Source of the DNA: Todiramphus chloris collaris
Lineage: Eukaryota > Chordata > Aves > Coraciiformes > Alcedinidae
NCBI GenBank assembly: GCA_025345505.1
Contig: JANVCC010000064.1
Coordinates: 5,131,693 to 5,195,692, forward strand
Direction: 5' to 3'
DNA: 64,000 nucleotides
The notes beneath the pieces are model-generated. The model was not told where the DNA came from. It worked only from the letters and a program-made list of their open reading frames with translations, and did not search any database. Both the position numbers and the translations under genes were made by a program. Of the stretch, positions 7,712-64,000 are shown one piece after another. The first letter of the stretch is position 1; each line of letters begins with the position of its first letter.

Positions 7712-9685
7712 CTGCTCAGTAGCTGGTCCATAGTGCAAAGAGTTCAACTTAAGGCAAAGCTTTCTCTTCTTTATAAACAAGCAACAAACAAACGGGCCCT
7801 AAAACAATAAAGTGTGACTGCTGTAATAGAAAAAGGGTTTGAGGGGGGGGAAACTGCACTCCTGGGGAGGTGTCCTTCCCCCTGTAATTCGTGCAGGAAA
7901 CATCACACCCCAAGATCCAAGAGCTGGTCCCAACCAAACACCTGCAGCCAGAAGTGTGGCCACATTCCCACTCCTGGGTGTCTCTAGAGGCACACCCGAG
8001 GAAGGGTCCAGCTCCTGGTCTCCTCTGGCGGGGGGATCTCTGCAAGTGCCTGTGACAAGCTGGGGAATGCAGCTTGGGGGGCTGTGCTCGCTGCTCTGGC
8101 AAGGGTTTGGCTACTCAACTGCAAGTGCCGCTGACTGCAGTCACAGGAGAGCCCAGGTTTGCAGTCCAGGGGTGCCTCCCTGCATGACCTGGCCTCTCTG
8201 CTGCCTCTGTTTTTGCTTAAATCACTTGATCAAGGAGAACAGAGAAGTCAGACTATGCCAGCCACCCTCGGGCTCTTGGCTTGCAGTCCAGGAGTCAAGA
8301 CTCTTTCCAGTCTGGCTCCAGCCAAAATTGGCTGTGGCACGTGGCTGACCTCAGGCAAGCAGCTGGAAAAAGAAAAGCTTTTTAGCACAAGGCCCTCTCA
8401 CAGCCCAGCAACTTCTTGGAATGGTGCTGGTTGACCAAGCTGGGATGAGCTGTCTCAGGTCTCCCCAGCCAGGATGGGATGCTCTCATTAGAATTCAGGG
8501 GACACTTTTAAATAAAACTAGCTATACTTCTGACAGACAGTAAGACAGAATGACAGTGTAACCCTGCCCTAATCAAAGACAGCCATGGCCCTGCTACTGC
8601 TCCGTGCACACGACTGCAGATCCACAGCACAGATATGCAGAAACCGTGCCTGGAGCTGGAATGTCTCAGTGGGCTCCCAGGAGCTTTGGGGTGTCCCCTC
8701 TCCTCCCAGTTATTCCCTCAAGCCAGCTCAGCCTGGGAAGCAGCAAGCAAGGAGTGGTGTGAACCACCCAGTTCCACGGCACTCTTGAGCGTGAAGACAA
8801 CGTGGATTATCTAGAGGGGACTCTCCAGCCTTGCCAGGGCTGTAAGCACTGACCAGCCAACCACCCCTCAGGCTCCCCAGGCAGCGTGTAACTCCCTCCC
8901 ACCTCCCCATGTGAGTGTGCTTGCTGGTCTTGCATAGGTGATGCACAGAAGCGGCAGCAGCGCTGAGCTCTTCCCACACGGAGCAGGGAACCCACCTTCA
9001 TCAGCGCTCCTTCTTGTCCTGGCAAAGGGCACAGGAAGCTCAAAATCCAAAGCCACAGATCCTGATGTACCCCAGAAACCCTAGTGTTTTCCAGCTCAGA
9101 GCCAGGCTCAGTCCTCTGGTAGCAAAGCCCCAAAAAGCTTGAGTGTGTTCATTGCCCTCTGAGGGCCTTGAAAAAAGGGGATGCTTCTCCCTTCCCTGGG
9201 AACCCCCTGACTTAGGTGGTGGGAGGAGGAGCCAGAGGCCTGACTGCAGCCTCCTGGGTAGGCTTCTGGTCAGTTTTAGGGAAAAACCTGCCCTTGCCTT
9301 GTCCCAGCCCCTGTGATTCCCAGGAGGGTGCAGACTTTAAAGTTTCCATCAGCTTTGGCTAGGAGGGACCTGAGCACCTTTCTGCGCTCTGCTTTGGACC
9401 TCAGGCTGCTGCACGCCCTGACAGGGCAAACCTTGTCAACAACAACAAAGCAACTCTCTTATCTGCAGAGATCAATTATTGTGCTTGCTAGCAAGAGCTA
9501 CAATCTAGTTAGGTAGCGAGTGTGGCTAGCAGACACCCCCAACAGCCTTTTGCCTTTTCAGCACCATCCGTAGTTCTTTGGAAGCTGCTCAAGGCAGCCC
9601 TGGGAAGTTCTGTTTCCTGGCAAGAGGCAGCCAGGGGTGCTCTTGACCTCCTGGGGAAACGACCCAAGCCACCCAGCCCTTGGGT

Positions 9686-11134
9686 TCACAAGTACACATT
9701 GAGCGTCTGGAGGATCATCTGGCGGCACAGCGGGCAGTTGCGCTGGTAGATGGCCTGCTGCAGGAGGACTTCTGTGCACTCCTGGCACAGGCACAGGTGC
9801 CTGCAGGGCAGAAGCAGGACCGTCTTGGTTTGGTCTTGACAGATGACACATTTCTTACGTTCCTCTTGCTCTTTCAGGAGCATCCAGGGGTCATTGTCCA
9901 GAGGGCCCTCGGCATCTCCAGCTGCTGCGTTCAGCTGCTGTCTCCTTGGAGCTTTCCCCCGGGAGGTGCTCGGTTCCTCCCTGGGCAGCTGGAGACGCTG
10001 TCCTGCCATGGCACTTCGACTCAGAGCGGGACGCGCTTGCGGTACCTGCTCCGCGTCCAGTTGGTCCTCGTGCTCGGCAGGCAGCTGGATGGCCCCTGCC
10101 AGCGTCAACCTGCCAGGGGCTGCAGCTCTTGGGGTGGGCACGGGTGCCCCTTGCTGGTTGCTTTCCCGGTTCATCGTTCTGCCTCCTCGGCTCCAGTTGG
10201 TGACCTGCAGACTCCAGTCGGTCACTTGCAGACTCCAGTCCACCAACCTGCGCCAGGCCTGGGAGGTCATGGCCATACCCAGCGTCAGGACTGCCATCTG
10301 ATAGAGCCGCCACACATCCCGCTGCAGGCGGTGGTAGGAAGGCAGAGTGTTGAAGTAGCCCAGCACATAGCCTGCCAGCGTCCACAGCAGCCCGGGGTTG
10401 AAGACAAAGGCGCTGACAGCAATAATGAGGAGGAGCAAGCCCAGGCCGTAAATATTCACAAAGAAGATGCTGATGAAGAGCTCGACGACGGAGGCCAGGA
10501 TCTCGAAGGCCAGCTGGCAGGGCGACCACAGCAGGATGGACACGGTGATGGCGCCGCTGGAGACGTGCGCGAGGAAAGCGGCCAGCAGGTCCGTGACTCG
10601 GAGGAAGGGGCCGGCGACGGAGTCCCACAGTGCGGCGAGCAGGGTGAAGAGGTTCTGCGTGCCGATGAGGCACACGTTCACCAGGCTGTTGACCAGGTAG
10701 GCCAGCAGGCTGGTGCCGATGGCCAGGCCCTCGCAGACCTGCCTGGCCAGGGCCTGGCAGCAGCCCAGCAGCCCGCAGAGCCCGCGCTGCAGCAGCTCCC
10801 TGCCCCGCAGCGCCAGGTGCGACAGGAGGTGCCCGGCCACCTTCAGCCCCTCCAGGCCGCAGCAGCAGCCGCGCAGCAGGCCGGCCAGCCCCTGCACCGC
10901 GCCCAGCGCCAGGCAGCCGGCCGCCCGCGCCAGGGAGGCGAGCGAGAGGAGCAGCCCGTCCCAGCAGGCCAGCACCCCGGCGGCGGCGGCGGCGGGGAGG
11001 CTGCAGGCCGCGGCGAGAAGCCAGAGCAGCGCCGACACCAGCGAGGACACCAGGAAGAAGTTCAGGTCCAGCACCAGCACCAGCAGGTCCAGGGCCACCC
11101 GCAGCCCGCGGAGCAGCACGAACAGCAGGTCCAT
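9686..11134 (-). CDS. RNF26: RING finger protein 26, ER-membrane E3 ubiquitin ligase
   Basis: A single uninterrupted exon encodes 482 residues, longer than human RNF26 (about 433 aa), which is also intronless in its coding part. Roughly the first 290 residues hold several hydrophobic membrane segments, beginning with MDLLFVLLRGLRVALDLLVL. A polar linker follows. The C-terminal RING has CVIC (C429, C432), PCRH (C444, H446), CQEC (C450, C453) and CPLC (C467, C470), and the protein ends NVYL. From family knowledge, RNF26 sits in the ER membrane, recruits SQSTM1 to hold endosomes in the perinuclear cloud, and modifies STING. An in-frame tandem repeat lies near residues 299-315. The start codon is the first ATG in a CpG-rich leader. 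The gene is divergent from MCAM. Confidence 0.96.
   Translation of the reverse strand: MDLLFVLLRGLRVALDLLVLVLDLNFFLVSSLVSALLWLLAAACSLPAAAAAGVLACWDGLLLSLASLARAAGCLALGAVQGLAGLLRGCCCGLEGLKVAGHLLSHLALRGRELLQRGLCGLLGCCQALARQVCEGLAIGTSLLAYLVNSLVNVCLIGTQNLFTLLAALWDSVAGPFLRVTDLLAAFLAHVSSGAITVSILLWSPCQLAFEILASVVELFISIFFVNIYGLGLLLLIIAVSAFVFNPGLLWTLAGYVLGYFNTLPSYHRLQRDVWRLYQMAVLTLGMAMTSQAWRRLVDWSLQVTDWSLQVTNWSRGGRTMNRESNQQGAPVPTPRAAAPGRLTLAGAIQLPAEHEDQLDAEQVPQARPALSRSAMAGQRLQLPREEPSTSRGKAPRRQQLNAAAGDAEGPLDNDPWMLLKEQEERKKCVICQDQTKTVLLLPCRHLCLCQECTEVLLQQAIYQRNCPLCRQMILQTLNVYL
10190..10240 (-). repeat. RNF26: 21-bp in-frame tandem repeat in RNF26
   Basis: Two near-identical 21-bp units plus a partial third encode DWSLQVT-DWSLQVT-NWS, directly after the last hydrophobic block and before the polar linker. 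The two full units differ at a synonymous position (CAA/CAG) and one other base, which suggests a fairly recent duplication. Confidence 0.85.
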
Positions 11135-11139
11135 GGCGG

Positions 11140-11430
11140 CCGGGCGGGCCCGGGGCTGCGCCCAGGAGCCCCCCCCCCCCCCCCCCGAGCCGGGGCCCGA
11201 TCGGCGCCGTCAGCCGCGGCCCGCTCGGGGCCCCCCGGCGCTGGGCGCCGCCATCTTGGCTCCGGAGGCCGCGCGCAGCTGAGCCAATCGGCGGCGAGGG
11301 CCGCGCCTTTCCCCGCCGCTCATTGGGCGGTTCGGAGGACGCGGCGGGGGCGCGGCCGGTGGGGGGCGTGGCCGGTGGCGGGAGGGAGGCCTCTGGTTGG
11401 CTGTCGCCGCCGGCACTGGCCCCGCCCCCT
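11140..11430 (-). promoter_or_regulatory. RNF26: CpG-island promoter of RNF26
   Basis: The sequence is very rich in CpG. On the minus strand AAGATGGCGGC (plus 11247-11257) is an excellent YY1 site about 115 bp upstream of the ATG. A plus-strand CCAAT occurs at 11283 and a minus-strand one near 11325. No TATA box is apparent. CCAAT boxes in both orientations would suit divergent transcription. Confidence 0.6.
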
Positions 11431-11490
11431 GGTGCACAGTTAAAGGCCCAACGGCGCTGGCTGCACCGGCGCCGGGGAACCGCGGGGGCC

Positions 11491-23500: not shown

Positions 23501-26500
23501 GAGTGTCTCCTGAGGTGTCTAGTCCTGTGAGCTGGGGCCTTTGCTGTGGCAGAAGGGCTCCTGGCTGCGTTTTGGGGCTCTGCTACCACAAACCCACTTC
23601 AGACAAAGAGCAATTTGTGGGCACGGCATCGCCCTTTGAAGTCGCCTCACTTGGGAGTCTCCATGGCTGTTACCGAGCAGCACTATCAAGGGAGCTGTTG
23701 ACACAGCTGGTTTCCTCCAGCCTCTTGTCCCCTGCTCCCGTACCTGGGCTGGCCCGTGGGTGTTGTTGGGCTGTTCGGACCCAGTTGCTGGGGCACAGAG
23801 TGCTGTCCCTTCCTGCGGGGCTGCCTGCCACCCCAGGGCGTGCGGACCTCCCTTGCTTTGGCACCTGCAGGGCTGGCAGCGCTGGCAGTCCCAGCCTTGC
23901 TGTGATGCAGCCCTTGTCTCTGCCGTGCCCCCGGCCCCTCAGGAAGCTGCTCCTTTCCCTGTCCTGGATCGATAGCCATTACCCTCCCCTGCCTCTCTGG
24001 AGCATGGCCAGCAGCTCCATTACTACTGCAGGCAAGCGGGTGGCTGGACTGGGAGGAAGGTGGGGTGCTGGGGTGGGCAGGCTGTACTCACCAGGGTGCA
24101 GGTCCCTGGTGCCACCCGTGCTATGGGTGGGCAGTGCTGGATTTACTTTCAGGGCAGTGAGCAGAGGAGCAGTGAGGGGCTCGCCTTGGCTGTGCTGCGG
24201 GGGTGGATGCTCCATCTGCTGGGTTCTGGGTTCCTGCTCGAGTGGCAGGGTCAGAGCTTGGGGAGGGACCTGGGAGTCCTGTCTGTGCCAAGGCCATGGT
24301 GGCTGGGGTCATGCTGCCTCTTTTCCACCCTTTGAGGGGGAAAGGGAGCAGCAGGCAGCTACAGCTGGCTGGGGCACCCCTTTCTGAGATGCTGCCCTGT
24401 GTGCCTCGTCCCGCTGTGGAGGAACACAGCATCTCATTCATGCTCCAGCTCCTGGGGCTGCTGCGGGGGCCGTGCAGGCTGACGTCAGGGTCTGGTCCTG
24501 GGCTGCGGGAAGGTGCAGCCTTTGTGCTGCCAGCTTCAGTCTCCAGCCCCCGGCCCCTTCCCCTGCCTCTCCTAACCTCCTGACACATCTTTGCGTGGCC
24601 CTTGTGGCCAGTAAGGCATAGTGGGTGCTGCTCCGGGATGCTGGCTCGGACCAAGGAAGCGGATGCATGCTCTGGGGCACGAGGGGGATCAGCACTGCCC
24701 TGGGTGCAGGTTAAGGCAGCCAGCAGCCAGCCTCGGTGGTGTGTGGGGACACTGGGGGCTCCGAGGTCCCTCACCCATTCCAACAAGGCTGGAATGCTGT
24801 GGGGAGAGCAGGTCTGGTGGGGACTGCAGCAGCAGTGGGGGGAGTGGTTGTCTCCAGGGGTCCTGGGGAGACTGGTGGGGTGAGTACGGTGTGCCTCGTC
24901 CCCTCTCTGGGAACAGGGTTGGTGGCCAGAGCCCAGGGGCTCTCTGGATGCAGGAGGCCAGCAGGGCTGTGCTGCTGGGTGGCACTCCCACTGGGCTGGG
25001 ACATGGTGCCTGGGCGATGCTGGCACAAGACTTGGCTCTGCTCCCTGGCTGGCTCAGACCTGGGGGCTTCCCAGTGCTTCCCACCCTGACGGGCTCTGTC
25101 CCACAGCTGCAGCCAGCAAGCTGGAGGTCTCCATGCCGGCAGTGGTCGAAGTGGAGAGTGGGGGCACGGCCAGGATCGAGTGCAACTTCTACATCCCTGG
25201 AAATGGTTCCTACACCCACATCAACTGGTTCATTGTGAGTGCTGGCGTGGGGCCGGGGCAGTGGGCGGTGGGCTGGGGTCACAGCTAGCCTGGGGCTTTC
25301 TCCCAGTCTCCCCATCAGCCCGGCCTCAGCCCCTCATCTTGCAGATTGACCGCAACAACCGCATGAGGCTGTACCACATCACAGGCAACGAGATCCTGGA
25401 GGAGAACACGGACTACAGGGGGCGGCTGTCGGTGGGGGAGGACAAGGCCCTCTCCATCAGCAGGGTGACGATGCAGGACGCCAAGACCTTTGTGTGCCAG
25501 GTCAGGGAGGGCAGCCACAGCATGGGCGAGAACCGCACCGAGCTCCGTGTCTACAGTGAGTGGTGGGGCAGGGGGGCAGCGTGGGTGTGCATCTGCCCTG
25601 CGGGGCCGGTGGGGGGATCCCATCCCATCCCATCCCATCCCATCCCATCCCATCCCATCCCATCCCNNNNNNNNNNCCATCCCATCCCATCCCATCCCAT
25701 CCCATCCCATCCCATCCCATCCCTGTAATACGTGTGTGATGGCTTCTCCTTCAGAGGTCCCCGAGGCCCCGGAGATCACGGCCAAATCAGGAGGCATCTC
25801 TGTGCAAAGCAGTGAGGTCCCACAGGTGAGGAGAAGCCCCACGCCGGGGAGGGGAGGCTTTCAGCCGTGCCAGGCTCCCCGCTCCCCTCTCCCGTGGGGC
25901 ACTTCATGCTCAAGGCTGGCTCTGCCTCTGCAGATCGCCCAGTGCGTGAGCAGGAATGCCTTCCCAGCCCCCAACATCACGTGGCACAAGAATGATGAGC
26001 AGCTGGAGGAGAACGGTAAGTTGGACGGGGATCTGCACCTTCCTGCTCGGGAGAGGGGCCGGGGCACTCGCGCTATCCAGGGCATCACCGGCTGGGAACT
26101 GGCATCCTGTGGCTGGCCAAAGGAGCCCTGTGTTCCCACGGGAGCCCTCCTCTCCCCATGGGCTGGGAACAGCAGCCGCCCCCCTTGTCCCTGCAGGGGA
26201 AGTGAAGATCATGTTCACGCGGACCCGTGAGTCGAGCGGGCTGTACACGGTCACCAGCACCCTCTACGCCCCCGTCACCCGGGAGGACCGCAGCTCTTTC
26301 TACCACTGCACCGTGCACTACTGGCTGCGGGGACAGAGGCGGGCCCTGGAGTCTCAGCGGGTCAACGTCACCATCTTCTGTGAGTCGGGGGGCCGGGGGC
26401 TGTGCCCGCTGCCGCCCGCCCGGGCTCCACATCAACCTTCCCTGCTGCCTCCTCCCCCAGACCCTGCGGAGCACGTGGAGCTGCAGGTTGTGCCATCCTC

Positions 26501-30289: not shown

Positions 30290-31710
30290 AGAGGGAATCT
30301 ACTAAGTGCTTTCTTCCTTCAAACCTTTCCTGCTCTTGGATTGCCTTGTCCCACCCCTGCTCCAGTACCTGGGGAGCACGGCCAGAGATGATGACTGCGT
30401 CGCAGCGCTGAGCCCCAACGTGCAGGGGACGCCCCCCTGACTCACCTCTCCAGTACCTCAACCGTGGGCTTGCGGGTTGTCGACTTAGCAGCAGCAAAGC
30501 TGGATTTGCTTACTACCACAGAGAAGCCTACAGCAATATTAGAAAGGAATATCCCATTAAGCTCCCCGGTGGAAGGATTTGAGGCTTTTTCAGGAAATTT
30601 GTTCTGTACGTGCGTGGGAAGGTTTTGATGCGTTTTTTTACCCCAGACTTGCTCGGAAAAGCTGGTGAAATTTCTCTTTTACTTTTGGGATGTCCGAGGC
30701 ACCTTAGACGTAGCGGTGTGCAGGTTAGACGAGCGAGGAGGAATGGGAGCGGTGCGTTAGAGCGGCGTTTGCCAGCTGCTGGGGAGGTGTTAGTGCTTTG
30801 CTTTGCCTTGGAACCCTTCTTGTCTCGGTGGTTTAGCCCGGCGTGTCCTGGTGGTGCTGTGCGGGTCGGGAGCTCTGCGGTGGGGGGGGGGGGGCTGTGG
30901 TTTTAGGGGAGGCAGAGCGAGGACAGGGGTGCGCAGCTCTCGGGCACAGGCCAGACCAAGGGCTTAGGGGTCTCTGGCTTGTAGCACAGCCTTGCTGGTG
31001 TCAGGGGAAGGACTCCTCTCTCCCCACTCCCCAGGAAATGGGATTGCTTTCCGGGAGGCTGCAAAGCTGCTGGCTGCAGCAGGTGATGGAGACCCCCCCC
31101 CCCCCCCCCCCAAAATTTAAAGCTAAGGAATATTAGTCCAGGGCCAGTCAGCGATGTCTCAGGGTTGTATTTTTGTGCTGAACAATTATCCCCAGGTAAA
31201 ATGGATTTCTTTCTGTGCTTTGGTGGCACTGCTGGCCCCAGAGCCGGGCTGGTGCAGCTGAGCGGTGGAGAGGGAGGGGAGATGGGCAAGCAGCCTGCCT
31301 TTAGCTTCTGCTGCCGTGGCCTGTCCCAGCCCAACGCCTGCAGCCAGGGCTGGCTCTCCTGCCTCCTCCGAGAGAGATCAGCCCCATGCAGCCCTCCTGC
31401 CTCTAAGTCACATACTCTCAGTGCTATGCTGTCCACAAATCCGTCTGCACCCAGCCCCTCGGCAAGGGGCTGGGGCTAACCCTGGGGACAGGAGAGAGGT
31501 CCCCCCCCTGCACACCCCAGCATCCTCTGCCAGGAGCAGGGAGCCGTGCAGCAGCCGTCGGCCAGCACCCCAGCAAGCGGTGAGCTATACTCGTGAGCTA
31601 CAAGTGTTGAAGCAAGAGCTTTGGTTTATATATATTTTTGTTGGATTGTGTGTAAATTTCCAGAAGTTTTGTCTGATACTCGCAAGGGGTTTTTTTTTTA
31701 TATATGTGAA

Positions 31711-31716
31711 AATAAA
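31711..31716 (+). terminator. MCAM: Poly(A) signal of MCAM
   Basis: AATAAA follows a T-rich and TATATA stretch 1.42 kb after the stop codon, with a GT-rich tract (GGTTCTGGGTTTGTT) just downstream. Further AATAAA motifs at 32216 and 33449 could be distal alternatives. The 3' UTR contains a 19-base C run at 31093-31111. Confidence 0.75.
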
Positions 31717-31739
31717 GTACCAAGTTCAAAGCCAGGTTC

Positions 31740-34015
31740 TGGGTTTGTTCCTGCTAGCTGTGGCTCCACCAGGATGGTAAGGGCAGCGTGTCCCACCCTG
31801 TCCCCACTCGATTTCAAGGCTCCCTTCCCCAGGAGCAGACTGCCAAGGCCGGGTGGCACCCGGCAGAACGACATTGGCTTAACCTGCCTTTGCGCGGCAG
31901 CTGGGGCAGGAGCGTGTGTTCTGTCCACGGGGAATGGGTGATGCCATTAACGGGTGGCACCAGTACTGCAAGGTGGGTCTCAGCTCCAGAGAGGTGTTGG
32001 CAGGGGCCCAGGCCGTGTCCCTGATGGTACGTTGGGTTTCAGCAGTGCCCAGCCATCTCCGCTGTGTCTTTGTGCTGTGCCCTTGACAGAAGGTGTCTTT
32101 ACAAGAGAGAAGAGGCAGGAGGAAGCAAACTTCCCAAGTGGATTTTTCTAATCCTGTAACGTGTCCAAACAGACTTTATAGACTGTTTAATCCAGTGGTG
32201 AAATATCAGGGCTTCAATAAATCAACAGTTCCCTCATTAATATTCTAGCACTCGGGAGCCAGAGCTGTGAATCTCAGAGGACTTTGAGTAACTGGTCAGG
32301 GGGGAGGATGTGAATCCAGCTGAGACTCTGCTCGAGGAAACCTCTCAGGAAATGAGCCCATGGTGATGCCTGGGCTGAGTCAGCTGGCTTCTGGCACACG
32401 GGAGACCAACATAGCAAGTGGGGTGGCATCCACTGGAGTGGGTGCTGTGAAGGAACTCATCCCAGTGTGAACAGTGAGACACAGCCCCCTCCCCGTGTCC
32501 TCCTGTGCCCCGGGGAGGGAGATCTGGAGCCCAGCTCAGCAGCTGGGTCCCCTTCCTCTCAGCAGGGCTGGGGAGGCAGGCGGGAGCCTCAGTTGCCTTT
32601 GTCAGTGTCTCCTCCAAGCTGACTTTAAATATTTAATACCATAAAAACAGCCGCAGCCCTTGCCGGGCTGTCTGATGGAGGAGTCTGCGTTTGAAGGGAT
32701 CCCATCTGTGAGGAATCCATCTCCAAAGCCGTTCTCCCGTGAGCTGGCTGAGGCAGGGATGCTGGTACCCAGCCGTGCCGTTCGTGTTCCTCTGTGGGGC
32801 TGCTGATGTGCAGCGGGGTGAGGCAGAGAGCCCCTCCTGCTCTGCTGCCCGGGCACCATGTACTGGCACGACTCATGCTGGCAGCATGGCAGCAGACTCT
32901 TTACATGCAAAAATAGATATCTTTTCAGTGAACATCATTTTAAAACTGTGAAAAGTATCTGTATATTTTTTTTGGTCTGATTTTCTTATTTTTTTTTAAT
33001 TACTTGGCCAGCCTTTGTCCTGGGAGTTTGATCCTCTGTCAGGTCTGTGTTCTCCTACCTTCTGCCTGCTAACGAAGTGCAGGGGGGTCCTTCTGCAGGC
33101 ACTGCAGGGGGGGGGCATCCCCGGGGGTCCCTGCTGGGGAAATCCTCAGTGGCTCCCACCGGTGCTGGCTGAGTGGGCAGAGCTCAGATGCCTGCAGGGA
33201 ATGGTGGGTGTCCAGGGCAGTCCTGCTGCAGGAAGGGGTGCAGCAAAACTCAGGTGCCCCATCTACTGTTGGACTGCTGTTTCCTGACTGTTGGTGGAAG
33301 TGAACACTCCTTCCAGGGAGGTATTTTTGGAGGGCCCCTGCAGGGGCAGTGCACAGAGGGTGTCAGCCTGCTGGGTGCTGCGCCCGAAGCTGCGTGCTCA
33401 GGGAAGTGTGTGTTGGCAGTGCAGAGACCTGTCTCTCTTCTTAGCGCTAATAAAAAATCACAAACCACCACCAAACCTTGACCTGCCCCGGTTCTTGCTG
33501 CGCGTGACCTGCCCTTGTGTGTCTCTGCCTCCTGGGGAGCTGCCCTAAGAGCTTGGGGAGGTCTGGGCGCTGCCCAGGTAAGCGCTTCTGGGGACAAATC
33601 CCCCACCCCTCTTCTGAGGCACCTCAGAAGCAGCTCCAGAAAATGCCAAGTCCCAGCTGCACTGTGGCTCCCGGCCCTGGGAGGCTTGGCCGCAACCCCG
33701 CTGAGCAGCGGTCCCGAGCTCGCGGGTTGGAGCCATCGGAGCCGTGGGGCACGGGTCCGTGCACACCGGGCTGCCTGCGTATGTGGGGAAGAGGATTTGC
33801 TGTTTCTGGAGCTCCAGCGCTGTGCAAGTTGGAGAAACTCGGCGATTAGAAGAGCAAAAGGACAGCGTGCGATTACTCTGCCAAGAGCAGCGTGAGCTGT
33901 AAGCTCATTACGGGGCTTGGCCTCTGCCTGCCGGGGAAGGGGCACTGCAGTCCCTGCCTGCCTGGAGCCCCCGGTGCATCACTCCCAGAGCTTTGCCCCC
34001 CGGGACAGCCCAGCC
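31740..34015. other. Interval between MCAM and the IQ-motif gene
   Basis: No recognisable coding exon. It presumably holds the promoter and any leader exon of the downstream gene. The frame of that gene stays open for 33 codons upstream of its proposed ATG, so an upstream coding exon cannot be excluded. Confidence 0.45.
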
Positions 34016-36522
34016 ATGCTGGCTACCCTGATGACAGCGCTGTTCTTCGTGGTGAGAGCGTTTGGGCAGGTGAGCCTGGGCTGGCCGGGCAGCAGGGAGG
34101 ATTTGCTGCTCTGCCTTTCATTTCTAGAGGTGTTTGGGGTTCTCTTACGAGGGGAGGGATTGAGCTGTGGGGGATGCGGGCTGGGGATGCCCCGTCTCCT
34201 GCTCCAGCCGTGGCTGGTGGTCGCTGGTGATGCGTATGGAGGAGCAGCTCTTTCTGCTGCTCTTAACCTTCTCTCCTCTCCTCTTACCTGCTGCAAATCC
34301 CTTCCATGCCCAGCTCGGGACCAACCTGTTCCGTGAGGAGCCCCTGCCCTACCTCGTGTACCAGCCCCTGCCCTGGCAGATCCAGTGTGTGACCCAGAGC
34401 CGCCGCACCAGCCGGGACAGCGAGGTGAGGGCTGGGGAGAGGGCAGGGCCTGGGGCAGAGAGCAGCCCCCGGCAGACCTGGTGTCCCAGGTGCTGTGGTT
34501 TCATGGGGGGGCTGGAGGAGAGGAACGGAACCCGGCGAGTCTGGTTCCACGGTGACTGAAATGCAGACCTAGCGAGGACACAGCCTCTGCCAGGGAATGT
34601 CCTCAGGTGCTGCCAGCGCTCCTCACGGGTCTGCGTTCTGGTACAAAGCTCTTTGCTGCTTCTCCTCAGAGCCTTTTCACAAATGCAGATTAATTATCAG
34701 TGCTCGGCAAGGGAGGAACAGCAGCTTCAGCCTCCCAGAGGGAAGGGAGCCCGGTGAGGCTGCCCCTGGCCCCTTGAGCGCCCCAGCTGCCCTGCAAGGG
34801 ACTGTTCCTGCCACCTAACCAACTCTTGTGTTTCTGTTCTCTGCCTTTCTAGAGAGGCAGGAGCTCTCGGCACAACAGCGTCTACTCGATTTCTGGAGAC
34901 AGAGGTGAGTGGGGAGAGGCAGGGAGGCTGAGGGCACACTCCTGGCTGTGACTGTAGGATGCAGGCGCTGCAGTTCCTGGGCCCTTCTTGGCCTCTTTCT
35001 TCCTCCAAAAATGTCTCTGACACCAGAGGGTATTTTGGAGCCAGCCTGGTGGGAGGGAAGCTCTCTGGCAGCTTTCTCTCCAGGCTGCAGCTCGCTGGCT
35101 GTGCTGGGTTTCCAGTTGTTCCTCCCCGCAGAGGTTGCCCTCCTGGCCACTCCTGGAGGAGGGCACCTGAGTGCGGGCAGGGGTGAGATGTTCCTTGAAA
35201 CCTGTGGCCTCGCCCAGCCAGGGCTCCCGTGTCGCACGGCCGAGCACAGTGCAAATCCCCCCCTTCCCCCGGGACCTGCCCCGCTGAATCGCAGGGGACA
35301 ACGTCCCCCCAAAGTCCCCCCTTCTCCCTTTCCTGGCCGGGCAAGCCCATCCTGCCTCTGCCCCCTCTCCTCCTCCTTGCTCTTGCCCCCACGGCCCTGC
35401 CCCCCTGCTGAAGTCAAGCGCTCAGCAAAGAGGATTTGAGCTGGGCTATTCAGAGCGGGGCTCGGGCAGCAATCGGCTCAAGCGGGTGCAGCGATGCCAG
35501 ACGCTGCCGCCCGCCCACCCTGGCAGAGCGGGCAGGGTGCTGAGCTCTGCCCTGCCCCTCCCCGGGCCAGCAGCCCTGGCCAGCTTGGCCGCTGCTCTGG
35601 GGGGTTTCACTGCCCTGGGCATAGGTGATGGTCCCCAGGGATGCCTGGGCTGCTGGTGGCCTTGTGCTGGGCCAGGATGTCACTGGTGCAGGGTGTGGGG
35701 TTGTTGGCAGTGCTGCGATCATGGAGCAGCCCCTGCCCTGGCTGGATTTGCAGTTGGCCATGTGTGTCTTGTCCAGCAGGGCAGGAGGGAGCTGAGTCCC
35801 AGCGTGGACTCGTTAGCTGGCTTTTTACTCTGCAGCTTCTTTAGGATGTGGGTGACAGTGGTGAGCTCACCCAGCAGCCCCTGGCACCGGGGTCTCCGGT
35901 GGCTGCTCGGGGGGTGCTTGGCAGTGGCACGCGGGCTTAAAGGAGCGCTGCTGAGCGGCTTTGATTCGGTTCCCGTTGAATTCCACAGCGCTTCCCTGAT
36001 GCCACGTTAAGGGGGAGGTGGGGAGGGCTCCCATTTGTCAGCCTGAGAGCTTTATTGCTGTACAGGGCCGGGCTTTTTTTCTAATCTTATTTGTGTGTGT
36101 GAAAGTAAGCGAGCATCGCAGCCGGTGATGAAGTGTGGGGGGGCGGAGGGCTTTGGGGAGCGATGCTGTGTAAATAGAGGGCTTAGTGCTGCCAGGGAGG
36201 CTGGGCTGGGCCTCCTGCTCCCCGCTCTGAGATGCTGGGGAGTTGTGCTGTGCGCTCTCCAGCCTCTTTCACCTCCACAGCCTGGCTGTGGGTGCCCTGG
36301 GAGGGGGTGTGGGGTGATGCCAGAGCCCTGCCCTGCTCAGTGGAGCCTGTCCAGGGCCACCGGCACTGCCCGCGCTCACTGTGGGGCTGGGTTCTCCTCC
36401 CAGGCACCGTGACCCCTGATGCCAGCAGCGAGAGCAAGTTCTGCAGCGACCCGGAGAGGGCGGCCGTCACCATCCAGACCTGCTTCAGGAGATACCAGCA
36501 GCAGAAGCAGGAGAAGAAGTAG
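34016..36522 (+). CDS. Unrecognised small IQ-motif protein, PCP4-like C-terminus
   Basis: Four exons (34016-34069, 34314-34424, 34853-34904, 36404-36522) join in frame with good GT-AG sites to 111 residues. I do not recognise the gene. The ATG has G at -3. Residues 1-18 are hydrophobic (MLATLMTALFFVVRAFGQ) and could be a signal peptide or membrane anchor. Residues 19-72 are polar, with basic/serine motifs (SRRTSRDSE, SRHNSVYSIS) that could be phosphorylated. The C-terminal exon has a serine/acidic lead-in and ERAAVTIQTCFRRYQQQK (residues 90-107), an IQ-type calmodulin-binding motif closest to PCP4 and PCP4L1. The basic residue five after the IQ arginine is Gln here, so the motif is incomplete. 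A poly(A) signal at 37666 supports an expressed gene. A second in-frame donor in exon 1 (34051) would shorten the hydrophobic segment. Calmodulin binding is inferred. Confidence 0.72.
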
Positions 36523-37665
36523 ACACGTCTGCCACCTGTGCCCTGCGCTGTCCCTCCTGTTTGTCTGCCCTCTGCTGTACCCCAAAGATTTGCGGCCGTG
36601 GTGACTGAACCTGCTCCCCAGTAGGTAGCTTCTGGTGCGTTCTCAGCTGTAGATACTCTGCCCTTGGTGTTGGCCACCACTCAGAGCAAGATCTCTGCTG
36701 GTCAGTCCTTCCCCAGACAGCACTGCCCTGTGTGCCAGGGTACAGCTGGCAAGGGGCTGCTTGGGACCTCGGCTCCCAGGGAGGACACAGCTGACAAGCC
36801 TTTCCTTCTGGCAGCCACCCATTTCTGAGTGCTGGCTTCTGGGGAATGCAGAGTTGTTGAGAAAGAGGGACTAGGGAAGCACTGAGCTCAGGGCCAGCAG
36901 AGGAACAGGAGGAGGTTTACTGAGCAGGGTGGGTGAGATGTGGGTGAGGAGGTGCCATGCGCTGTCTCTGTGGGCAGGAGCAGGGCACAGAGGAGCTGCT
37001 CTGGCTGCTGGAGTGTGGGCTCCACTGCCTCTGAGGCTGGATTTTCTGTGCAGAGCTGCTGAGCTGTGCCCCTAGAACCTGTTCTGTTCTGTCAGCCCTT
37101 GTTAGGAGGGCTCCATCCCCAGCTTTACCTTAAGCTTGTGGGTGCTTATTTGGTGTCTGGCTCGTGCTCAGTTAGTGCTTGTGGCCAGCATCCAGTGCTG
37201 GTGGCTTTTCTCTGGAGCTCTTGGGAGAGCAGGGCTGGTGATGGGTTGCTCTGCGAGCTGCCAGGCTCTGCTGTGGGCAGCCCGAGCTGGCTGGCACCAG
37301 GAGGTGGGTGTTGGGCAGTGTCCGGGGCGTTGGCTGGGGTGCTGTGCCCAGCAGCTGGTAAGGCAGACCTAAAACCAACTCGGCTCTCTGGCTTTCTGAG
37401 CTTGATGGTGTTTTGCTGGTTTCCTGTGAAGGCAGAGCTGGGCCAGGGTGGGTGGCCTGGGCTGTTCTCCTTCCCCTCCTGGGCGGTGGTTGTGCCCAGC
37501 GATGTGGGGTGGGCTGCCTGGCAGCGGGGCGCTGGGCTCTCCTGGTTGGGTGCTGGAAATCTGGGCTGTGTTGAGCGATGTAAGGCCAGGGTTTGGAACT
37601 GATAGAGAAGGGAAGGGGGAGAACTCCTGCTAGAATCTAGAAAGAAACCTGTACTAGCCAACTCC

Positions 37666-37671
37666 AATAAA
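37666..37671 (+). terminator. Poly(A) signal of the IQ-motif gene
   Basis: AATAAA lies 1.14 kb after the stop codon, with a T/GT-rich stretch (GATGTGCTATCCTCTGTTAA) immediately downstream. It supports a real transcript ending near 37690. Confidence 0.65.
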
Positions 37672-37691
37672 GATGTGCTATCCTCTGTTAA

Positions 37692-40144
37692 TTTGTCTTT
37701 CTCTCTTGCTAATCCACTTACTCTCTCATCTGAGAACACTCTGTCTTTGCCTCTATCTCAAGCCTGGGGTTGGTGTTTGGGAGGTGTTCCCTGGCTGGGA
37801 CTCTGCTGTGAGGTGGGCAGTTGGCTCTCTTTAAATCTGTGCCACGTAAAGGTTTGGAAGTCTGTGCATGGAGCTGTTCCTGAAATCCTGAGGAAAATGT
37901 TGGAGAGATGCTGCTCCTCCTGTCAGCACTGCCCACTGATCTCGGGGGCCGATGGAAGGGGCAGGGCTGGTGTTGCTCGGCTGAAGGCAAACACTACCCT
38001 GTGCCAGTGATCTCCAGATGGGGGCTGCGCCGTGGAGCTGCTGCCCTGGGGACCCCAGACTTTAGTCTCCAAAATCCAGTTAAAGTGGAATGAATAGGAA
38101 AAATCATGAATGGAAGCAACCACTGTTCAGAAGAGATCTTGGGGATTCATGTGAAAAACCCTGCAAGGTAAGTGCTGCAGGAGAAGCCAACCCGTATTTC
38201 CTGTGTGGATTTGGAAGCTGGCTGATTGCTCTCGACATGAATTCCTGGATCCTTTCCTGAGCCTACTGGAAACTGCTGGCAGAAGCAGAGCAGCTTGAGC
38301 AGTGGCTCCGGAGGAGGGAATGCACTGTCCTGGAATGGTTTGGTTCACCATAAGCAAAATCTGTCTGTCCCTAAGGGAAGATTTACAGGGAAATAGGGTG
38401 TCGATGGGGGTTTTGGTGCAAAAACACAAGCGGGACGTATGAACTGTGGCTCTTGTCTCATCAGACACGATCCCTGATGCCTTCCCACCAGCCTCTGCAG
38501 CAAAGGTTCTCTTCTCCGTGCAGGATGCCCCTCAGCAGAGGTTGGCTCTGAGTGTTGCCTGAATAAGGGCCAAAACTGATGATAAATGACGAGAAGAAAC
38601 TGTGGTACCAGCTTGTTTCTCGAGCCCTGGGAGAGAACAGCTGCCGGGCTATTGCCAAGGCACTTCCAGCTCTGCTGGACTGGAGGATTTACGCTGTTTA
38701 GAAAGAACCAGATGGCGAAGGATGATCTGCTGAGCAGCGTGAAGGCACGAGCAGGTAAGGGGGCTGGAAGCCAGAAGCTGCAGGTAAGGTCACTGATCAC
38801 GCTAATCGTTTCATTAGTCTATCAGTGTTGGGGCTGTTCATTAAAAAAAACTAGGAGAGGCATGAAAAAGGTTAACTCTGTAGTACTCAATTATAACTGA
38901 TGTGTTTTAAAAAGAAAGCACTTCTGGCAAGGGCAGGGGGGAGACTGGTCAAAGGGTGTGCACACATGTGCCAACTGGTACTTTAAAGTAAACTGGGAAG
39001 AGTATCTGTCCACGGAACCAGTGGGTAGCACGCATGGATGGGGAAGTGATGAAAACACTAGCTTATAAATGACAGGAAAGGTGGAAATGGAAGTACAGGC
39101 AGTTCCTTCGACCACAGAGAGCTGGAACCTCTGGGGACAGTGATGTGGGTGTATCTGACACTGCCTGAGCCTGTTGCCTTCTGTAGGCGTTGCAACGCAA
39201 AGAGGACAATGTAACGTCGATCACTTCCAACTGGCCCTATCCTGTGATCTGCTTGTGCATACGTGTCAGTTATAGAATACCATAGTGCATTATATTCTGT
39301 CTTCCACTATCCCCTGTACTACTCAGGAGATGGTAGAAGTATATTGCCTTGGTTGCAGAAGGTATAATACACTATACTGTATTAATTATATAACATAACA
39401 CACTATACTGTGGATTACAGAATAGACCAAGTAAAGAAATTATTTATTCTCACACCGGTATTTTTTTAACTGGATTTTCTGTGTGTTTTGGAGTTAAAAT
39501 GGATTCTCTGTGTCACAGCCAATGTGTGAACTGCAGTGACTCAGAAGTGTGTAGCTGATTTTGGATTTATTACATGGCCTTTGTAATTCATATATAATTA
39601 TATTCTACAAGGGGGTGACATGTATAATTACTGCATAGCATTTCTATTATTACATCTTTTAGAGTCTCCAGCAATGTCAGTGAGAGGCAGGTGTTGCTGA
39701 ACAGACTCCAGCAGAGTGGGACTGGTGCTTCAGGATCCACCAGAGTCCAGCAGACCCTGTGGAACCCCTCAGACTTGACTGGATTCCTGTGGACTCCCTC
39801 AGATACCATTCGTGAGTAGTAACAAACCTGTTCATGCCCTTCTCACTCCAACAGGTCCTGATGGATTACAGACTTACTAGTGTATGTTAACTCCATCAAT
39901 ACTAGTAGGATAAACTTTGTGTAGAACGTTTCTGTCCCCCCTTTGTTAGCATCCATGATTTGCATTTAACAGATGAGGGTGATGATGGTTAAAACAGAGC
40001 CTGCCAGAGATCCGAGAGGCTAACTGCACATCTTGGACCTGGGCGCCCTGACCCAGAGGACTGAGGTAGGCTTGAGCAGGATCTTCCTCTTCTAGGGCTC
40101 ACAGAACCGACACAACGCAGACCATATGCTACGACAAAGGAAAT
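37692..40144. other. Convergent intergenic interval (IQ gene / CBL 3' ends)
   Basis: No coding exon recognised. Base composition shifts from GC-rich to AT-rich near 39180. TTTATT motifs (AATAAA on the minus strand) at 39443 and 39565 could be more distal CBL poly(A) sites, in which case part of this interval is CBL 3' UTR. Confidence 0.5.
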
Positions 40145-40150: not shown

Positions 40151-43100
40151 TAAAAATAAAACTTTGTTTTGTTTTCTTTTTTTACTGACACAGGTGAATG
40201 AAATCCCAAACAAAGAAGCTCTTAGTGGGCAGCATACAAGAATGGAAACAATTAATAAATAACATTAGTATAACCTCTAAACATTAACAATGCATTTGCA
40301 AACAAAATGAGGACTTTAAACCAAGTGAACCTTAAAGCTCAGCTACTCTCTGTAAGAATATTTACCTTCTGTTTTTCCTTATTCTTTACAGATCTGAAAG
40401 GATTAAATACTGCTATTATATTTTTATATTAATGACACTATTATACTTTTTTTTAAAATATTTTGTGAAAATCTCAACATTTTTAACACTGATATTATAC
40501 AAATTGGTATTTGTCATTCAAGAGAAAGAAACAACTGTTCCTCCCCCACCAGGAATTTCAAAAACGATTTCTGTTAGGAACTTTAAAAATAAGTGTCCTT
40601 ATTCCCCACTGATTTTTAAAGCGGCACGTTTAAGAAAGTGCCCTGGGAGCTGCATTCTTTCTCCTTACTGGAAAAAAAAACCAACAAACCAAATAAAACA
40701 AAAAAAACCCAACAAAGAACCCCACATTTACAGTAATGACCCTGCCTCAGGCTTAGCTACAGTAATGTCATCGGTCTAGTGCAGGAAGCAACATGCTGTA
40801 CTGGGCTCCCCCAGGGAAGGGCTGAGTGAAGGGCATGCAGGAAAGCTGTCCCTGGGGAAAGCAAGCCCGCTGGCTCCCGGCAGAGATGGACACCCACGGG
40901 GCAGCAGAGCTGTTTTACCACCCCCCTGGCAGGACGGGTCTCGTTTCAGACTCCCAGCCAGCTCGAGCTGAACGCAGCGCAGCGGCCGGGCTGTGCGGAG
41001 CAGATGCTGCTGGTGGCTGGTGGACCGGCCCCGTGCGTGTCGTGCCCAGCTCCTGCTGGGCAAAGCCTTTTCTGCTTGCTTTGTGTCCTGGCTTGACAGG
41101 TTAGGGGAGAAAACAGCATTTTTTTTCTGAGCAGAACTGGTGTTTTTGTTCCAAGCAAACCCAACCCTGTCCTACCGTTGGACCGTCTTCACACCCAACG
41201 TGGTACAGCGCCAGGCCGGACAAGTCCCTGCTAGTAACAGGTAAAGTAGGAAACCTCCCCAGCTGAAATGCTACGAAACACAGTGGCAGAGTTGAGGTGA
41301 CAATCGCCCATCTTTCTTGCCCCTTCTTTTCACCCCTTTCAAAGCAGCCTCAGTGCTCAAAGGCACCTGTACAGCTTGGCTAGGTGGGGCTCTTCGTTTC
41401 CAGAGGAACGGATGCTCAGATCCAGCCCAGCGATGCCGCATTCCCTTAAGAAAGGCACCAGACATTTGGGTTGTTTTTTGTTTTTTTTTAAAGTCGTATC
41501 ATAAAGTTAACTTCTTAAGAATAAAGATCAAGGAGGTGAAGGGAAAAAAAAAGATCAATCAATCTTAGGCTTACTTTTCTGAAAGAACAACAAGAAAAGA
41601 ATACACTGTACAAGTGCCTGGCTTGACTTTACAGAGCCCAGCCATAAGACACGGCCAGGACTCTGCTGCACTTCAGTGGGACTGGCAAACACCTCAGTGC
41701 CTAAGGAAGAAAAGACTTCAGTTTCTTAAAGCAGTTTGAGACACAGTGCACAGAAAGGACACATGCAGAAAAATTAGCGATACATGCCACGAAGACCACG
41801 CTCTCTCATCCCTGGAACAATACCCCCAGGAACATCTCCCAGCACACAAACCCCACGGACAGGCCTGGAGCAGCTCTGCTCGGCGTGATTTAATGGAACG
41901 TTACGAGCTTGTATGGGACAGGGCATCACTACTCTGGTCACACACACTGCAAGACAGGAGTTAAGGCTTTCCAGCTGGCTGGACTTGGCTCTTACACAGC
42001 CTTGGCAGGGGCAAGAGTCACACACCACACTTGAACACACTTGCACTGAGTTTAAACAGCAAGTCAGAAATAAAGTGGCTCCAAACCCCAACAGAGCTAG
42101 TGGCAGCACTGGAGAGAATATGGAAAAGAGGGAAATAAAGCCTTAGTGCTCCCTCACAAAAGGGTTTTTACCTGTTTCTCCAGGACAGAGCCAGGAAATA
42201 GCTCTCAGAGGCTAGGGCTGGTGGCTCAACACGCAAATCTACGGAGAGAACAACCAGAGCTGCCCCGTGTTCCTGCTTCAGCAGCACCAGTGCTGGGCTT
42301 GCTCCTCTCGACACTCCCCCAAACACACTGCCAAGGCTGCTGTGCATAACTTCACACAGAGGGAGCAGGGCTGGCTCACCATGCTACTGCCTGCTGCACA
42401 CGTGGGCACAGGAAAAAGAACAGCTCTTCCTCCCTGAGCACAATATGCACTGACATTGCCCTCAACACCTTCACCCTGCTCTGGGCTGCACCTGACCTCT
42501 CTGGGCACTGCTGCAGACCCTGTGCCCACTGACAGAGACCTCATCACCCTCTGGGCGCTGCTGCAGAGCACTGTGCCCACTGGCAGAGACCTCATCACCA
42601 TGCTCCATTTACAAGTTTCAGCCCTGGCCCCAAAATAGCAATGGTGGTGATGGCCCTGTAAGCACTGCAGAAGATCTTCTGGTTTCAGAGAACGTTGTCT
42701 CCGCTGAAGAAAGGAGGAGAGGAAAGAGAGACAGTTCATGCTTTTAAACTGCCTGGAACCCAGTGCCTCAGTTTCTGAAGCTGTAGATCTAGAGAGAACC
42801 TGTACTCTCCACAAACCAGAAATCTTTAGTGGAATTCCCTTTGCTAACGCTTGTCAAGTCCTCTCTGACATTTCCCTGACACCTGGGCCCAGCTATGAGA
42901 TTCTTCAAAAGGCTAAACTGCATCCAACTCCCAGAATCACTCCAGCAGCACTTCCAGTCGTAACCCTTTGCCTGGGGCCTGCTGCTGCCCCTCAAGAGAT
43001 GCAAATCCTGCTGGACACACTCCAGGAGGCCCCCAGCCCCTGGCTGCGCGTCCCGGCGTGACTGGAACCCCCTCCAAGGAGCCGCACGCCTCTCCCACAG

Positions 43101-44424: not shown

Positions 44425-64000
<19,576 letters not shown>

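Follow-up and report, generated by a model that had tools for sequence, protein, structure and literature searches.

The locus described here raises the question whether the interval between MCAM and CBL in a bird holds a protein-coding gene of its own, and what kind of protein such a gene would encode. We know of no human gene in this interval. The window analyzed was a stretch of 64,000 nucleotides from Todiramphus chloris collaris (C45:5131693-5195692, in a genome of 1.17 Gb), and the contig is evidently a bird microchromosome, as inferred from its gene content. From position 1 to 64000 the order of genes was C1QTNF5, RNF26 (minus strand), MCAM (plus strand), the reported gene and CBL (minus strand). 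C1QTNF5, with a C1q domain (Pfam, E 6.2e-38), and RNF26, with a RING domain (Pfam), were named by eye, as was MCAM, whose last coding exon ends with SEKYIDLRN and a stop codon at about 30.27 kb. CBL was recognized by a RING piece matching CBL structures (E 3.7e-15) and by a UBA domain at 44.4-44.8 kb (Pfam). In the Pfam scan, four of the seven gene pieces of the window were without a family at E <= 0.01, the CBL RING piece included. The neighbors named in the original prediction were thereby borne out, and the reported gene sits between the tail-to-tail MCAM and CBL.

A chain of four in-frame exons from an ATG to a stop codon, with GT-AG borders, had been proposed, and this structure was confirmed at positions 34016-36522 of the window on the plus strand. 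Exon 1 (34016..34069) carries the ATG and the hydrophobic N-terminus, residues 1-18, and ends at a phase-0 donor, CAG/GTGAGC. Exon 2 (34314..34424, GC3 0.946) encodes residues 19-55. Exon 3 (34853..34904) encodes the basic, Ser-rich residues 56-72 and the first base of codon 73, and is too short for a coding signal of its own (a weak 1.4 bits). Exon 4 (36404..36522, GC3 0.921) runs from the remainder of codon 73 to the stop codon and holds the IQ motif. The exon lengths of 54, 111, 52 and 119 nt give 336 nt, corresponding to 111 codons and TAG, and the three introns, all GT-AG, have phases 0, 0 and 1. A simple matrix of textbook values placed the donors 6th, 7th and 4th among the 525 GTs in 30-39 kb, and put the acceptors 57th, 10th and 14th among the 717 AGs there. 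The tail of about 1.1 kb followed by AATAAA was also found as proposed. The polyadenylation signal is located at 37666..37671, starting 1144 nt beyond the stop codon, and 36523..37665 is presumed from its position to be the 3' untranslated tail. The gene, which would presumably be transcribed, possesses a multi-exon open frame, consensus splice sites, an ATG and a poly(A) signal. An uncertain 5' extension of exon 1 (33989..34015) was seen at an in-frame acceptor, CACTCCCAG/AGC, before the ATG (score 6.33). This acceptor may mark the start of exon 1 after a noncoding leader exon, or a different true N-terminus.

Coding sequences in this GC-rich region are characterized by a marked G+C excess at third positions. 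The GC contents at codon positions 1, 2 and 3 of the predicted coding sequence were 0.518, 0.482 and 0.866, with an intron GC content of 0.628. In rounded form the values of.52/.48/.87 compare with.68/.45/.85 for RNF26 and.61/.47/.90 for the C1q exon, and exons 2 and 4 resemble both in codon-position composition. GC-rich DNA offers many long open frames, and the window contains 294 stop-to-stop stretches of at least 90 codons, so that the four exons could be a chance chain of open stretches in noncoding DNA, for example in a long 3' region of MCAM or CBL. Multi-exon chains were indeed frequent in tiles of real DNA. The codon-position contrast was, however, reached by none of 4899 same-shape templates slid along the region, which overlap and are not independent. 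Exons 2 and 4 were each above all 15,872 stop-free control frames of 111 nt (by 3.8 and 4.4 SD), the controls being overlapping frames from both strands of presumed noncoding DNA at 11.7-20, 30.4-33.9 and 36.6-44 kb. In addition, none of 300 shuffles matched the gene-finder score, and the IQ motif lies in the same frame. A chance origin is therefore considered very improbable, and the GC contrast in two separate exons is taken to indicate that the amino-acid sequence has long been under selection.

In a scan of 30.4-44 kb over 90-nt segments, the strongest plus-strand signals were exon 4 (0.55) and exon 2 (0.42), and exon 1 reached 0.35. Three plus-strand stretches outside the exons passed the threshold of 0.33, at 31276 (0.35), at 34182 in intron 1 (0.33) and at 42216 (0.40). 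Five of the six minus-strand hits mirrored plus-strand hits, and exon 4 antisense gave 0.57. An antisense gene was considered and rejected. Exon 4 was nearly equal on the two strands (14.2 bits antisense vs 16.3 sense) and exon 1 was better antisense (5.8 vs 3.9 bits), but the best antisense values were only -2.5 vs 19.8 for exon 2 and -1.3 vs 1.4 for exon 3, and the IQ motif belongs to the sense strand. In codon-usage scoring, exons 2, 3 and 4 all favored their sense frame.

Recovery of the gene was followed with a crude, self-made gene finder, of which an earlier version admitting many tiny exons was discarded. At an intron penalty of -16, a value chosen by us and on which exact recovery depends, the region 33300-38000 returned exactly the four exons at 44.1 bits, compared to 17.5 for the minus strand. 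Dinucleotide shuffles (n=300) had a mean of 1.6 and a maximum of 11.7 bits, which the minus strand of the same region likewise exceeded. At the same penalty, the larger region 30400-39400 gave the four-exon chain with exon 1 starting from 33989 and an added 3-nt exon at 31774 (46.2 vs 26.6 on the minus strand). Lowering the penalty to -13 introduced two extra exons within intron 3 (35084-35182 and 35454-35624) in the region 33300-38000, and resulted in near-equal scores of 65.6 (plus) and 64.3 (minus) in 30400-39400. When real DNA was tiled, 39 of 122 strand-tiles scored at least 44 bits, many of them, in no exact count, containing known genes, and high-scoring chains were found at MCAM, RNF26, DSCAML1 and BACE1 as well. 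Since scores of this size occur readily in real DNA, the case rests on the codon-position composition. The gene is very probably genuine.

The predicted protein had been characterized by a hydrophobic N-terminus, a serine/arginine-rich middle and a C-terminal IQ motif; translation and a Pfam IQ match bear out this arrangement, with the middle described here as basic and Ser-rich. IQ profiles were the only Pfam families found at E <= 10, all at residues 90-109 (ERAAVTIQTCFRRYQQQKQE, 36454..36513). PF00612 matched with E 5.1e-4 and 20.0 bits, just under its cut-off of 20.3, and the Nav channel C-terminal IQ profile PF24609 matched weakly over the same residues (E 0.012, 15.6 bits, cut-off 27.7). 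The IQ consensus pattern is IQxxxRxxxx[RK]. I96, Q97 and R101 fit this pattern, whereas position 11 is Q106 instead of R or K and is followed by K107. A search of PDB yielded two matches at E <= 10. The better of the two, to 'Dynein, putative' over residues 31-105 (E 0.02), was regarded as a chance hit. The other, the IQ of PCP4, aligned to residues 86-108 (phmmer, E 0.55) and is the sole solved relative besides that chance match. The helical moment was 0.41 for the IQ regions of both proteins.

The hydrophobic stretch comprises residues 2-13 (LATLMTALFFVV, 34019..34054), with a Kyte-Doolittle mean of 2.46 over 12 residues and a best 19-residue hydropathy mean of 1.65. It is short and followed by Arg, which makes it a borderline membrane helix, and a signal peptide fits about as well. 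The main rival explanation takes up this point. On this view exon 1 of a genuine gene encodes a signal peptide that is cleaved off; the product would be secreted as a small peptide, its helix would resemble an IQ only by accident, and its partner would not be calmodulin. The 12-residue hydrophobic stretch comes directly after the ATG, residues allowed at -3 and -1 under the usual rule occur near the end of exon 1 (AFG/Q) with the intron immediately after, dibasic pairs are present in the translated product, and the Pfam IQ score is slightly under cut-off. On the other hand, similarity to the PCP4 IQ extends over 23 residues with a typical core, the number of cysteines is odd (three), and no amidation-type cleavage signature was noticed by eye. 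A secreted peptide is on balance regarded as unlikely. In the middle of the protein, RRTS51 and RHNS64 were noted, sites which we take to fit the basophilic-kinase consensus.

Neurogranin and GAP43 are small neuronal proteins with a single IQ motif and are similar to the 111-residue protein in size and motif, but unlike it they possess N-terminal palmitoylation cysteines and tails after the IQ. The resemblance to the Nav channel IQ is confined to the weak PF24609 match; the 111-residue protein is not a channel, and no other common part was seen. PCP4, or PEP-19, an IQ protein of 62 residues, accelerates Ca2+ exchange on the C-domain of calmodulin, and for its activity it needs the acidic stretch, with a Phe-Ile-Met plug, that precedes the IQ (PMC5122967). 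The ERAAVxIQxxFR core of the IQ helix is common to PCP4 and the 111-residue protein. Both the gene reported here and PCP4 of the same genome, as read, carry the IQ in their last exon, which follows a phase-1 intron, the PCP4 phase being read from the acceptor GCAG/AT and the known protein frame. The matching phase hints that the two IQ exons have a common origin, though intron phase often agrees by chance. The two proteins differ in length (111 vs 62 residues) and at the N-terminus, which is hydrophobic in the former and disordered and polar in PCP4, and phmmer found similarity only at residues 86-108, with none beyond the IQ region. An acidic stretch and hydrophobic plug like FDIDMDAP before the IQ is missing; the corresponding residues 74-90, TVTPDASSESKFCSDPE, have a net charge of -3 and no DxDxD pattern. 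Since it lacks the PEP-19 acidic and plug stretch, the 111-residue protein should be kept out of the PCP4 family.

The reading we prefer, and hold to be somewhat probable, is that the four-exon gene is genuine and duplicated, and that it encodes a small protein which binds calmodulin, has a hydrophobic N-terminus and resembles PEP-19 in its IQ exon alone. Calmodulin would be bound by the IQ helix at the C-terminus (residues 90-109), in the manner of PEP-19, neurogranin and Nav channel tails, a property judged fairly probable. The N-terminal hydrophobic stretch might take the protein to a membrane, although attachment of this kind is a tentative proposal with less than even prospects. At the membrane the protein could hold or release calmodulin, i.e. 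buffer or present it locally, and phosphorylation of the basic, Ser-rich middle would perhaps tune this handling. If expressed, the gene would add a calmodulin-binding microprotein of unfamiliar build.

A DNA search of the same assembly revealed a second intact copy of the gene at C45:6342551-6345070, on the same contig in inverted orientation and at a distance of 1.18 Mb. While the earlier interpretation as a spliced coding gene with the structure given above stood, this second inverted copy, between DSCAML1 and CEP164, had been missed. The duplicated block covers window positions from about 31959 to 38777, with its left part confirmed separately, and corresponds to C45:6340079-6348715 in inverted orientation; the BLAST pieces were 77.5-97.4% identical, with 99% identity in the gene core. 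On inspection, no exon of a neighboring gene was recognized in the block. The second copy is flanked by a DSCAM-like gene and by CEP164, with BACE1 beyond. The best matches of an Ig piece of the DSCAM-like gene were titin (E 5.1e-25) and DSCAM (E 6.1e-25), and from its exons as read by eye and from gene order we take the gene to be DSCAML1. CEP164 was represented by three N-terminal pieces on the minus strand (6375035-6376007). As a second copy exists, the gene did not necessarily have its ancestral place between MCAM and CBL, and a comparison limited to MCAM-CBL intervals could mislead.

All four exons, the splice sites and the AATAAA (at C45:6340808) are intact in the second copy. Between the copies, 18 substitutions separate the gene cores (2507 bp), and a single insertion of 13 bp was also present. 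In the 443 bp preceding the core 20 substitutions were counted, after the core 22 of 1097 columns were mismatched, and at the block ends mismatches rose to 45 of 403 and 54 of 538 columns (10-11%), with insertions of hundreds of bases. The 99% identity of the core is within the range of two alleles, and the second block has an assembly gap of 903 N some 4 kb away, which would suit an assembly artefact and a single gene. However, the two blocks are surrounded by different genes, and their ends differ more than alleles would, making an artefact a rather improbable explanation. With two genuine copies, the near-identity of the central 2.5 kb is most likely kept by gene conversion centred on the gene, as the pattern of differences suggests. 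Two near-identical copies in different neighborhoods would be a compact example of how inverted duplicates evolve in concert.

The coding sequences of the copies differ at two sites, both synonymous, an outcome with a chance of about 0.12 for transitions. Divergence was similar in coding sequence (2/336) and introns (16/2171). As the introns are as similar as the exons, the copy pair says nothing about selection. In another reading, the gene once had a function but is now unimportant and decayed or decaying, and both copies are its recent duplicates, the core being so alike (18 substitutions in 2507 bp) that joint intactness is little evidence of current selection. Yet neither copy has acquired a stop, a frameshift or a lost splice site despite the 10-11% divergence at the block ends, and the strong splice sites and codon signature persist; decay is judged improbable.

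Some details of the comparison were noted. The tract of low divergence, window 33981-36679, has a rather sharp start some 35 bp ahead of the ATG and tails off about 160 bp past the stop codon, so that the apparent conversion tract and the coding span roughly overlie each other. Among 40 substitutions between window 33573-36821 and C45:6342253-6345540, 23 paired A/T in the window with G/C in the second copy, 13 were the reverse and 4 were neither. Many of the substitutions between the copies, counted by hand, were at CpG. The bias could arise if CpGs decay in one of the copies, or if conversion in the other is GC-biased.

A search for further relatives was performed with the 111-residue product against its own genome by tblastn. 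Of 20 candidates scored, 15 were matches at E <= 10; eight of these were exons of the two copies, and the other seven were weak (E 0.079 or worse), five of them with stops. Prokaryote genomes gave 64 pattern matches and viral contigs 10, of which none was confirmed in either set, both being uninformative on vertebrates. When human PCP4L1 was used as the query in the bird genome, only a PCP4 exon was matched (C6:7583698-7583805). PCP4L1 may be absent from Todiramphus chloris collaris or from its assembly.

The syntenic region of chicken chromosome 24 has been covered in an association study that reports 14 genes there, nine named (NECTIN1, THY1, gga-mir-1466, USP2, C1QTNF5, RNF26, MCAM, CBL and CCDC153) and five anonymous, with SNP positions of 4,209,809 for MCAM and 4,235,437 for CBL (PMC8120320). 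Judging from the distances in the table of that study, the five anonymous genes would all be placed below the MCAM SNP, towards NECTIN1, and none between MCAM and CBL, in a gene list that represents one older annotation only, Gallus_gallus-5.0. No description of the gene was found in the open-licence papers searched, and it is possible that the gene is already annotated under a LOC name. GC-rich genes of bird microchromosomes are reported to be often missing from assemblies and annotation. It is a speculative and rather doubtful suggestion that vertebrates, or perhaps sauropsids only, have a so far undescribed gene family for PEP-19-like microproteins that attach to membranes and bind calmodulin, which gene conversion centred on the gene has maintained as two intact inverted copies on a bird microchromosome and which mammals have lost or in which it was overlooked. 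If kept by birds alone, it would be a candidate for a calcium-signaling gene lost in mammals.

Two further features of the window were observed. A stop-free stretch of 598 codons on the plus strand (9647-11440) runs antisense to the RNF26 coding exon and is presumably a by-product of high third-position GC. Gaps of 10 Ns were present at 25667-25676 and 50246-50255, inside stretches that translate as short tandem repeats (IPSHP...). Both are probably collapsed minisatellites, presumably located in introns of MCAM and CBL.
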